From positions 1 to 64,000 of the IMG/VR virus record IMGVR_UViG_3300042914_002629: a DNA stretch of 64,000 nucleotides; one strand, given 5' to 3'. Below are positions 6,694 to 62,982 of this stretch, one piece after another. Every line of letters begins with the position of its first letter. Position 1 is the stretch's first letter. The notes beneath the pieces are model-generated. The model did not search any database and was not told the DNA's origin. It saw only the letters and a list, made by a program, of their open reading frames with translations. The translations under genes and the position numbers were made by a program. Origin of the DNA: a virus.

Positions 6694-7158
6694 TCAGAAG
6701 TCGCCCGGCGCGGCTTGCAAGCAAGTCAGGCCGTTCTGGCGCCACATGGCGACGACGCTATTGCGATCATCGATCACGATCTGTGGATCATAACCCCGAT
6801 CGCGCAGCGTATCGAGCATATCCAGCTTCACTTCATGGTCTGGTCGGTGGTCACCATGCTTGCGCACGAACAGCTCATTGTGCGGGATCTTGTGCTCATC
6901 CAGCCACACCATGGTGGTGTAGATGTCTTCGGCGTTCCGGCCCGAGCACAGCAGGATGCGGCAGCCGGCCGTGTGCAGGATACGCACCAGGGCGACCACC
7001 GGCCACACCGGCTCATCCTCCATCATCGCCGCGGCGAACGCCTTCCAGTCCGGTTTCCAGTCCGGGAACAGCTCGGGCGTGCCAGAGGCGTGAACGATGT
7101 GGTGCCGCCGGTGCTCGACATCCGCCAAGGTGCCGTCGATGTCCACGATGATATCCAT
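6694..7158 (-). CDS. HAD-family phosphatase (polynucleotide kinase 3'-phosphatase-like)
   Basis: 154 residues starting MDIIVDIDGTLADVEHRR. DIDGT (residues 6-10) is the HAD nucleophile motif; LLCSGRN is motif II and QIVIDDRNSVVAMW the acidic motif IV. The arrangement resembles the phosphatase half of T4 Pnk and related phage proteins that remove 3' or 5' phosphates from nucleic acid or nucleotides. No kinase domain is attached. A GTG six bases upstream (GTGA overlap) is an alternative start; the ATG at 7158 has the better spaced AGGGG. Confidence 0.75.
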   Translation of the reverse strand: MDIIVDIDGTLADVEHRRHHIVHASGTPELFPDWKPDWKAFAAAMMEDEPVWPVVALVRILHTAGCRILLCSGRNAEDIYTTMVWLDEHKIPHNELFVRKHGDHRPDHEVKLDMLDTLRDRGYDPQIVIDDRNSVVAMWRQNGLTCLQAAPGDF

Positions 7159-7160
7159 TC

Positions 7161-7424
7161 TCACTTACCCCTGATCTGCTGGATGTCGAAGTTCATGGGA
7201 CGCGCCGCGACCATCGGGGGTGTGTAGCGCATCCAATAGACGCGCCGGCCGCCGAGGCTCATGGCTACGCCATCTTCCTGCAACCGGTACTCTTCCCCGT
7301 ATGCCCAAAACCACAGCCCGCCGTCGTGCCAACGGATGGCGACAATGCGATCATCGCCGGAAAAGCTGTATTTGACGTAAACCCGCCGGAACAGCAGGCA
7401 CATCAGGGCGCGCCACAGGTCCAT
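7161..7424 (-). CDS. small hypothetical protein
   Basis: 87 residues starting MDLWRALMCLLFRR; the start overlaps the upstream stop in TAATG. A weakly hydrophobic N-terminal helix is followed by a beta-rich, tyrosine/tryptophan-rich domain (WHDGGLWFWAYGEEYRL). Could be membrane-associated. No family recognised. Confidence 0.55.
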   Translation of the reverse strand: MDLWRALMCLLFRRVYVKYSFSGDDRIVAIRWHDGGLWFWAYGEEYRLQEDGVAMSLGGRRVYWMRYTPPMVAARPMNFDIQQIRGK

Positions 7425-8013: not shown

Positions 8014-8286
8014 TCAGCGAGGAACGATCTGCCCTTCGCCCATGATCGGGGATTTGTTCTTCACAATCTCCCCGTCGCAGATGTTGATGATGTCGGCGGC
8101 GGCCTTCACGAACCCGGCCTTGCCCCGCCACCTCTTGGCGGTTTCCACCACCTCGGGCGGGTGCCCGCCGGTCGGCTCATAGGACAGCAGACCGGCGGAC
8201 TCGATGTCGCAGATGTCCGCGATGTCGTAGAGGACCGCCTTAAGCCCGTGCTCCCGGATCAGAGAGACCAACACGTCGCGCATCAT
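8014..8286 (-). CDS. small hypothetical protein
   Basis: 90 residues (start MM at 8286, or the second ATG at 8283). Helical, acidic. It overlaps the end of the upstream gene by 47 bases in another frame, a longer overlap than usual here, so one of the two boundaries may be imperfect. Confidence 0.55.
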   Translation of the reverse strand: MMRDVLVSLIREHGLKAVLYDIADICDIESAGLLSYEPTGGHPPEVVETAKRWRGKAGFVKAAADIINICDGEIVKNKSPIMGEGQIVPR

Positions 8287-9011: not shown

Positions 9012-9050
9012 TCTTCACAATGTTATAGTGAAGCGACGCGGGAACGTCAA
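9012..9050 (-). promoter_or_regulatory. leftward promoter with CTTCAC...GTGAAG operator
   Basis: Read leftward: -35 TTGACG (9045-9050), 17-base spacer, -10 TATAAC (9022-9027). An inverted repeat CTTCAC (9013-9018) / GTGAAG (9028-9033) brackets the -10 box, and the sequence just downstream is ATTGTGAAGAT, shared with other operon heads. The -35 box overlaps the start codon of the divergent terminase gene, so leftward early and rightward late transcription meet here. Confidence 0.7.
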
Positions 9051-25557: not shown

Positions 25558-25606
25558 GCACCCTACGGGGTGCCGTAGAACGCCCGGCGGTTCGCCGCGG
25601 GGCATA

Positions 25607-25646
25607 GGGGCGGCAGAGGGAGGGCTCAGGCTCCCGCTGCCGCCCC
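25607..25646 (+). terminator. strong hairpin after the tail tube gene
   Basis: GGGGCGGCAG (25607-25616) pairs with CTGCCGCCCC (25637-25646), with an inner GGGAG/CTCCC helix. A second small hairpin (GCACCC/GGGGTGC) sits at 25559-25574. No T-run follows; probably an attenuator or mRNA 3'-end stabiliser lowering read-through to the tape measure. Confidence 0.5.
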
Positions 25647-25668
25647 GCCTCTCCTGAGCGAGGAAGAC

Positions 25669-42155: not shown

Positions 42156-42342
42156 CTCGGTACGCTACGCCGTGGCGCTGCTGGAGCTGATCGTCAAGGT
42201 GGCCGACACCGGCACCGAAGTGTTCGGGATGGCGACCAAGGCGCTGGAGCTGTTGCAGCGCCAGGGCGCGCCGACCGCGGCCGAATGGGAAGCCCTGAAC
42301 GCCAAGACCAAGGCGCTGGAAGACCGCATCCTGAACGGCTGA
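42145..42342 (+). CDS. small helical protein closing the late operon
   Basis: 65 residues starting MEPNSVRYAVALLELIVKVA; predicted helical, possibly amphipathic at its N-terminus. Overlaps the lipoprotein gene by 11 bases and is followed 13 bases later by the bidirectional terminator. No family recognised. Confidence 0.6.
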   Translation: MEPNSVRYAVALLELIVKVADTGTEVFGMATKALELLQRQGAPTAAEWEALNAKTKALEDRILNG

Positions 42343-42355
42343 TCGTCGGACAGCA

Positions 42356-42390
42356 AAAGGGCCGGGCCTCTGATGAGCGCCCGGCCCTTT
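42356..42390. terminator. bidirectional intrinsic terminator
   Basis: AAAGGGCCGGGC (42356-42367) pairs perfectly with GCCCGGCCCTTT (42379-42390) around an 11-base loop. Rightward it is followed by TTTCC and ends the late operon; leftward it is followed by TTTT, so it also suits transcripts arriving from 43149. Confidence 0.8.
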
Positions 42391-43149
42391 CCGTTTGGAG
42401 GCACCCTAGGGGCCTCTCGATCGCGACCGTGGCGTCCGGCAGTTGGAAGCCACGGCGGCGATGTCGCCGCGTCCGGCGCTATGCCGTATTCAAGCCCGCA
42501 CGCTGATCGGGCTTTACTACCGGCGGCGGGGCGGACGAACCGGCCCCCGCAACCCCCACCCCTAGCTGGGCAGGGCACTCCTGCGCCAAGCTGCGCAGGA
42601 TCTGGAGGATAGGGGGCGGTTTGGCAATCCGCTTCTCGGCCGCTAGACCGTGTCCTGATGCCGCTTAGACGACACCCTATCCACTCGGACACCCCATCGG
42701 GGTGAAACTCATGGCCCCCGCCTGCCTCGGGCGGTATTCGCTTAGAGCCGGCGGATCGCCGACCCCGGCACGGACTCGAACCGTGGTTGCGCTTGCTCTC
42801 GGCCAGCGACCGGTAACGCTCCGGCTTCCTCGTAGAGTGGGGCCGACAAGGGATCGGCCAGACTTCAATGCAATGTAGTCCGGGCCAGCATTCGGCCCCA
42901 CTCGAACCCCGTCCCCAATCTCGAAAGAGGGCTTGCACCTCCACCGGCGATGCGGCCCTGCCGTTTGCAACCGGCCTGGCCTACACACACCGCCTCTCCA
43001 CGTCGCTGGTGCAGGGCCGTGGATGCCCATCGTTCCGCCAGCTCGGCGCCTCGGACTTCTCGGGGTCAGTCGCGAAGCATCCCACAGCCTCCCGCGCCTT
43101 CGTCCAGGGGGGACTAGACTTGGCGCTGGTGTGTCCCGAGGGGATCAAC
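42356..43149 (-). ncRNA. candidate large structured non-coding RNA, about 0.8 kb
   Basis: No supported gene lies in 42343-43298. The sequence is packed with long inverted repeats: 42835-42846 with 42892-42903 (12 bases, perfect), 42607-42614 with 42675-42682 (8), 42579-42586 with 42593-42600 (8), 42492-42498 with 42508-42514 (7), 42427-42433 with 42449-42455 (7), 42455-42460 with 42465-42470 (6), among others. Read leftward it has a promoter at 43156-43185, an intrinsic terminator at 42356-42390, and T-loop motifs TTCGAGT twice, one on a perfect 5-bp stem (CACGG/CCGTG). The 8-bp helix encloses two hairpins as a junction. Size, phage setting and architecture recall GOLLD and ROOL RNAs; no similarity is claimed. 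The leftward direction is inferred. Confidence 0.6.
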
Positions 43150-43155
43150 TGCTAA

Positions 43156-43185
43156 ATAATATTGTGAACCGACCCGGTCACACAA
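43156..43185 (-). promoter_or_regulatory. leftward promoter for the candidate large RNA
   Basis: Read leftward: -35 TTGTGT (43180-43185), 18-base spacer, -10 TATTAT (43156-43161), in the only AT-rich patch of the gene-free region. A TTCACAAT half-site (43161-43168 on the plus strand as ATTGTGAA) sits between the boxes, the same half-site as at other operon heads. Confidence 0.55.
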
Positions 43186-43273
43186 GGTGACGATTTCGTT
43201 TGTTTTGCTGCCGCAAACGGAACATATTCCCCGGCGATGGGTTCGCCTTGCTGGCGTCCATCGTGACCTAACT

Positions 43274-43297
43274 GAGGGGCCTCGCGGCCCCTCTTTT
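43274..43297 (+). terminator. intrinsic terminator, rightward
   Basis: GAGGGGCC (43274-43281), loop TCGC, GGCCCCTC (43286-43293), then TTTT. A textbook terminator for rightward transcription, probably stopping read-through into the leftward replication genes. Read leftward it lacks a T-run. Confidence 0.75.
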
Positions 43298-43298
43298 G

Positions 43299-43796
43299 TC
43301 ACCTCCCCTTGAACAAGAAATCGTCGGCATCATCGCCCATCCAGTCGAACGGATCGGCGCTGTGATCGTGCGGCTTGGCCTTCCGGCGCCGACGCGGCGT
43401 GGCCAGGCTGCGGTTGCGGTTCCCCGCGTGGCGATTGCCGCTGTAGGCTTCCCAGCCCTTGCCTCCCTCGCGGACCTGCTCGCTGTGCATCACGCCCCAC
43501 ACCCGGAGGTAGGCGTCATGCAGCGGCTTGTCCTTCACGGAGTCCTTGAAGTTGCCATAGTCGATTTCGAGGATGCGATCCGCGATCACCTGGGCCACGA
43601 TCCGACGCGGCAGCAGAGTCCGGAAGCGGTAGTCCCTGCCGCCACCCTCTTCCACCGCTATGTGGTCGCCGAAGACCTTCTCCAGGTGGCCCTTGAGCCT
43701 GGCCCGCACGCACACCTTGTCTTCGCGATCGGCGACGCTGCCTGGCGTGGGCGCCACAACGGAAATGAAGGCGTCGTTGAAGAAAATCCACGCCAT
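43299..43796 (-). CDS. conserved phage protein of unknown function
   Basis: 165 residues starting MAWIFFNDAFISVVAP, five bases after CGAAAGGGCA (43802-43811). The order FFNDAFISVV, VRARLKGHLEKVFG, DYRFRTLLPR and YGNFKDSVKDKPLHDAYLRV is that of a small protein often seen in the early regions of proteobacterial phages. The C-terminus is basic and then acidic (DDADDFLFKGR). Activity unknown. Confidence 0.65.
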   Translation of the reverse strand: MAWIFFNDAFISVVAPTPGSVADREDKVCVRARLKGHLEKVFGDHIAVEEGGGRDYRFRTLLPRRIVAQVIADRILEIDYGNFKDSVKDKPLHDAYLRVWGVMHSEQVREGGKGWEAYSGNRHAGNRNRSLATPRRRRKAKPHDHSADPFDWMGDDADDFLFKGR

Positions 43797-45080: not shown

Positions 45081-45123
45081 TCTTCACAATTGTGAAGATA
45101 GGCGCCTCGACAGCCTGGGTCAA
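45081..45123 (-). promoter_or_regulatory. leftward promoter with perfect palindromic operator
   Basis: Read leftward: -35 TTGACC (45118-45123), 17-base spacer, -10 TATCTT (45095-45100). The perfect 18-base palindrome TCTTCACAATTGTGAAGA (45081-45098) overlaps the -10 box and extends into the start region, an ideal repressor site. It is the best copy of a half-site shared by several operon heads in this window. Confidence 0.8.
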
Positions 45124-62908: not shown

Positions 62909-62982
62909 GCCTCTTTAGCTCAGTGGTAGAGCAGCCGGCTCCAACCCGGCCGATCAGGGTTCGATTCCTTGGGGAGGTGCCA
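62909..62982 (+). tRNA. tRNA-Trp (anticodon CCA)
   Basis: 74 bases forming a full cloverleaf: acceptor GCCTCTT/GGGAGGT (with G-T pairs), D-stem GCTC/GAGC, anticodon stem GCCGG/CCGGC with loop CTCCAAC (anticodon CCA), T-stem CAGGG/CCTTG with loop TTCGATT, discriminator G, and an encoded CCA end. It lies just after a terminator and abuts the stop of a convergent gene. It could support translation or serve as a relic of integration. Confidence 0.9.

Follow-up and report, generated by a model that had tools for sequence, protein, structure and literature searches.

We conclude that the stretch between 42343 and 43298 is a real noncoding gap that is tRNA-like on one strand, and that it gives no basis for claiming a new class of RNA. 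The explanation we prefer, tentatively and at less than even probability, is that this convergent noncoding spacer holds a small, decayed cluster of phage tRNA genes on its leftward strand.

The analysed window is a 64 kb stretch of a linear IMG/VR virus record of 70,944 bases, with coordinates counted from the window start. The genome has a GC content of 66% and the gene content of a tailed phage, including a terminase, a Mu-type portal, a muramidase endolysin and DUF932-type, beta-clamp-like and RecT-like proteins. Its closest terminases in the phage collection belong to Brevundimonas phages (56% identity), and no terminase relative in IMG/VR exceeded about 55%, except in one contig of 4.8 kb that belongs to the same virus, has an identical terminase and ends short of the gap. 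The phage is unclassified and, given these distant terminases, effectively a singleton. The sole tRNA called by ARAGORN and RF00005 is a tRNA-Trp at 62909.

Rightward late and lysis genes stop at 42342 and a leftward operon stops at 43299, leaving 956 bases between these convergent operons. A codon-composition gene caller found no convincing gene with the genome's coding signature in 42343–43298, and, taken over windows of 150 nt, the GC phase range averaged 0.12 in the gap versus 0.39 in coding DNA. The 0.95 kb gene-free stretch described in the first-pass annotation is therefore borne out by the absence of both coding signature and 3-base GC periodicity, and the lack of periodicity speaks against a protein gene or pseudogene, which we rejected. 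Searches of phage, plasmid and IMG/VR collections turned up no homologue of the gap. Matches obtained by blastn in bacterial genomes extended over 23–68 nt only, and all ten of the matching loci examined were devoid of tRNA; we read these short matches as chance in GC-rich DNA, including a match in Pan1 that falls inside a CDS. Relatives sought through the 165-aa neighbour, the late-gene neighbour, DUF932, the endolysin and the terminase were distant phages only, and none was found with intact tRNAs at the equivalent place. It is possible, if doubtful, that the gap is a plain convergent spacer or deletion scar with a terminator at each end and no RNA function, its motifs being coincidental in GC-rich DNA. 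The want of a homologue in any collection searched is consistent with such a scar, whereas 950 bp of neutral DNA would be long for an otherwise gene-packed genome.

The tRNA-like character of the gap is confined to one strand. We measured coverage by k-mers from a set of 176 bacterial tRNAs and compared it with control segments and reversed-tRNA controls. At k=9, the leftward strand reached 0.395 versus 0.241 ± 0.049 (tail 0.0008; the same tail at k=12), whereas the rightward strand, at 0.174 for k=9, fell under the window mean and the reversed-tRNA controls were near background. Matches occurred at the proper tRNA positions for the D arms of Leu (43040), Glu (42648) and Pro (42596) and for T loops (42911 and 42786). 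When the T arm described below was masked, the leftward excess became weaker, with tails of 0.01–0.14 depending on k. This strand-specific excess, together with the T arm, argues against a spacer or scar with coincidental motifs.

The T arm itself, CACGG-TTCGAGT-CCGTG at 42769–42786 on the leftward strand, is perfect. Perfect 5-bp T arms with a TTCRAN loop occur just twice in the 64 kb window (both strands, 128 kb), here and in the tRNA-Trp, and the one in the gap is the fourth-best tRNA covariance-model match in the window. Two leftward TTCGAGT motifs had been pointed out previously; both are present, but only the one at 42774–42780 lies in a T-arm hairpin. Further along the same strand, a cloverleaf-like element at 42604–42682 (covariance-model hit of 8.0 bits) comprises an 8-bp closing stem, three hairpins and then U-CCA, and holds a tRNA-Glu-like D-arm string. 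Cloverleaves with a 3' U-CCA number three in the window, versus 1.33 expected per shuffled window and about 0.02 expected for the gap region. The closing helix (42607–42614/42675–42682) had been described as a multi-way junction enclosing two hairpins; the junction stands, but with three hairpins it is a four-way junction. A tRNA-Glu string picked by eye, TCGTCTAAGCGGCATCAGGACAC, was discarded, having zero exact matches in the genome or in viral contigs. Also leftward is an 8-bp hairpin, CCTGCGCAGCTTGGCGCAGG, at 42578–42601, which has GCGCAGCTTGG in common with tRNA-Pro D arms.

Adjoining the T arm is an acceptor-like, long-range helix of 9 bp (43069–43061/42767–42759), spanning 42759–43069 on the leftward strand. 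An 11-bp helix (43044–43034/42755–42745) crosses it, so that the two are predicted to form either a pseudoknot or alternative folds. In relaxed mode ARAGORN returned a split-tRNA match at 42760–43067; we rejected an intron-split tRNA-Gly there because the window yields eight comparable false matches.

These motifs were partly picked by eye ahead of testing, and the T arm, cloverleaf and 3' CCA are all present but distributed over different elements. No gap element was called by ARAGORN or by RF00005, even at E≤10. In local alignments to 75 diverse tRNAs, the best part of the gap ranked in the top 1–6% of segments, with a score not above that of ordinary coding DNA. Weighing the strand-specific k-mers, T arm and cloverleaf against the absence of a called tRNA and the unexceptional alignment, we consider, with modest confidence, that the balance favours decayed tRNA genes.

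The first-pass annotation had seen in the same interval a large ornate RNA, possibly akin to GOLLD or ROOL. Its listed inverted repeats are present (42356–42367/42379–42390, 12 bp; 42835–42846/42892–42903, 12 bp; 42607–42614/42675–42682, 8 bp), but helix counts, 70-nt energies and whole-RNA z are within or near the genome background. Maximal Watson–Crick helices of at least 8 bp numbered 4 in the gap versus 1.8 ± 1.5 in control segments for spans up to 100 (tail 15%), and 5 versus 5.7 for spans up to 350; a cruder measure, the count of overlapping 8-mers, was elevated (2.6% tail). Relative to control blocks, the leftward strand had a mean 70-nt folding energy at the 13th percentile; the rightward strand was at the 38th. 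Whole-RNA z was -2.1 or -1.9 leftward and -0.9 rightward, and 380-nt control segments elsewhere in the window had a mean of -0.7 ± 1.2, the lowest being -3.9. Structure does not clearly exceed the background of this 66% GC genome, which leaves a large ornate RNA unsupported; these energies and long-helix counts are what a plain spacer or scar would also give. Two long leftward hairpins, at 42835–42903 (z -5.7) and 42418–42464 (z -5.0), are strong individually, although selected after inspection. The lowest folding energy of the window lies elsewhere, at 25581–25650 (70-nt values of -53 and -50 kcal/mol on the two strands), in the gap after 25557, and is probably a large terminator hairpin.

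Known families were searched by scanning the gap region and the window with all 4227 Rfam 15 covariance models at permissive thresholds. Neither GOLLD, ROOL nor any other large RNA matched at E≤10 over 42300–43320 or over the window, and because nothing appeared even at that threshold, membership of GOLLD or ROOL is rejected; the remaining Rfam families likewise lack support. ARAGORN called no tmRNA. A new orphan structured phage RNA is, in our judgement, unlikely. It would run leftward from about 43150 to 42390 as a multi-domain molecule (a domain of about 300 nt at 43044–42745, the cloverleaf at 42682–42604 and 3' hairpins) and act as a late-infection scaffold or decoy. The noncoding nature of the gap, the hairpins at 42835–42903 and 42418–42464 with z near -5, the better folding of the leftward strand and the operator in the promoter-like site speak for such an RNA, whereas the whole-RNA z is matched by some coding segments, Rfam is negative and the direction of the promoter is ambiguous.

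That promoter-like site, at 43150–43185, is an AT-rich core bearing the operator half-site TTCACAAT (43161–43168). The half-site occurs eight times in the window versus 0.74 expected and nine times in the 70,944-base record, with no occurrence of the reversed control. Its sites are at 8060, 9014, 43161, 45083–45096 (where it forms the full palindrome TTCACAATTGTGAA), 46429, 52222 and 53775, and also at 70462 of the record. The copies at 9014 and 45083 overlap promoter-like sequence that lies upstream of leftward operons; the hexamers read at 9014 are leftward TTGACG-17-TATAAC, followed by ATTGTGAAG. The sites are likely the operator set of a phage repressor, and from the over-representation of TTCACAAT and its overlap with other promoter-like sites, the copy at 43161–43168 probably marks a regulated promoter. 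The half-site pointed out earlier in this promoter is upheld, the over-represented motif being common to the gap site and other promoters. A helix-turn-helix transcriptional repressor-like protein encoded at 66759–67331 of the record (L327, 2860–3432) is a candidate TTCACAAT-binding factor.

The direction of this promoter is less clear. A leftward TATTAT promoter had been proposed, and the site with its operator half-site is there, but it does not pass a simple sigma-70 scan. Read leftward, the site has TATTAT and a weak -35; read rightward, AATAAT is directly followed by ATTGTGAA, the same order as at 9014. Its AT-rich core, AATAATATT, comes close to being symmetric. A strong intrinsic terminator for rightward transcription was found by the terminator scan at 43274–43297 on the rightward strand, 110–130 bases downstream of the promoter-like site. 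A rightward promoter toward 43274–43297 would fit the operator arrangement at least as well as a leftward one, and a short transcript, about 130 nt long, could run rightward from 43150–43170 to 43274–43297, facing the leftward operon at its 3' end. Given the near-symmetric core, the ATTGTGAA order and the rightward terminator, a self-contained leftward transcription unit is not established. At the other end of the gap, a perfect 12-bp stem with an 11-nt spacer (42356–42390) is the probable terminator of leftward transcripts and perhaps terminates rightward ones too. Of the bidirectional terminator proposed here, the very stable stem holds good (z -5.7 for 42349–42397), but the terminator scan made no call. 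Alternatively, the palindromes could be protein sites in DNA, as in a replication origin, packaging or partition site; their length and the AT richness of 43150–43225, beside operator half-sites, would suit this. We regard such a DNA-level element as improbable, as the direct repeats are short two-copy matches with no iterons and the tRNA content is strand-asymmetric.

The hairpin at 42835–42903 carries on its stem, in exact form, the end motif of Salmonella Y RNAs (CGAATGCT...TTGTCG), shared with the YrlA and YrlB consensus sequences; it is the sole copy in the window, even allowing one mismatch on each side. The YrlB model scores it at 24.2 bits against a Rfam gathering score of 97, with E-values of 5.4e-4 for the YrlB family alone in the record, 0.033 for the 1 kb gap and 2.1 window-wide; with 4227 families counted, the window-wide match is at chance level, as expected of a plain spacer or scar. 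In Salmonella the Y RNAs belong to an RNA-repair operon, and YrlA is a mimic of tRNA (PMC7790460; PMC8394870). By analogy with the Salmonella yrlB–yrlA pair, the 42835–42903 stem might bind a host Ro60/Rsr ring while the T arm mimics tRNA, the RNA perhaps competing for tRNA-damaging nucleases. Beyond the exact motif and the single-family E-value, such a mimic could draw on the T arm (42769–42786) lying 49 nt downstream of the stem, on a phage gene with a polynucleotide 3'-phosphatase domain, and on the tRNA-like domain of YrlA, for which a nuclease-competitor role was proposed (PMC7790460). We nevertheless hold it to be very improbable. The 70,944-base record, which may be incomplete, contains no TROVE/Ro60 gene; the YrlA model matches the real tRNA only, and nothing in the gap; YrlB is at chance level over all families; the motif's 41 matches in IMG/VR are roughly as many as chance would give, and their stems never exceed 4 bp; and the YrlA beside a Ro60 gene in another genome (L214) has a different end sequence. 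More speculative still is a phage noncoding RNA combining a Ro60-binding Y-RNA-type stem with tRNA-mimic modules that would divert host RNA-processing or tRNA-cleaving enzymes.

The phosphatase gene, at 6697–7164 on the leftward strand, encodes the HAD phosphatase domain of polynucleotide kinase (PF25109), is downstream of the operator-bearing promoter-like site at 9014, and may specify an RNA or DNA end-repair enzyme. Beside Ro60 genes in other genomes, at L213 2623–2691 (leftward) and L214 1271–1369 (rightward), we observed a permuted tRNA-like RNA with a YrlA match of 48.4 bits, under the cut-off, and a match of 36.1 bits to the nematode family RF01656.

Returning to a decayed tRNA cluster, we infer that the gap is transcribed, that it originated from tRNA genes and that it has no present role. 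Leftward transcripts would arise by read-through from the 43.3 kb operon and/or by initiation near 43150, cross the gap and stop at the 42356–42390 stem. The tRNA-like elements are too degenerate for charging and use in translation, and would have at most a passive role, as RNA recognised by tRNA-processing or tRNA-cleaving enzymes. A decayed cluster would be of modest interest, as an illustration of how phages lose tRNA genes; were the tRNA-like pieces instead kept as mimics, they would make up a decoy by which the phage counters tRNA-targeting defence, or else connect it with Ro60 RNPs.

Compared with known systems, the gap resembles GOLLD and ROOL, phage RNAs often located near tRNA islands (PMC12286853), in being phage-borne, noncoding and about 0.8 kb long, but differs in having no covariance-model match and no clear excess of structure. 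It differs from YrlA and YrlB (RF02553, RF02565) in occurring in a phage without Ro60 and in a hairpin far under Rfam cut-offs that has no permuted D arm, while sharing with them a stem that has CGAAUGCU...UUGUCG as its end motif and a T arm close by. As in tmRNA, a T arm is followed by an acceptor-like strand that pairs about 300 nt upstream, but there is no ARAGORN tmRNA and no CCA after that strand. Finally, although none of its elements is recognised by ARAGORN or RF00005, the gap is like phage tRNA genes and arrays in being noncoding and in carrying, on one strand, a T arm and a CCA-ending cloverleaf, and its phage does possess a tRNA-Trp.
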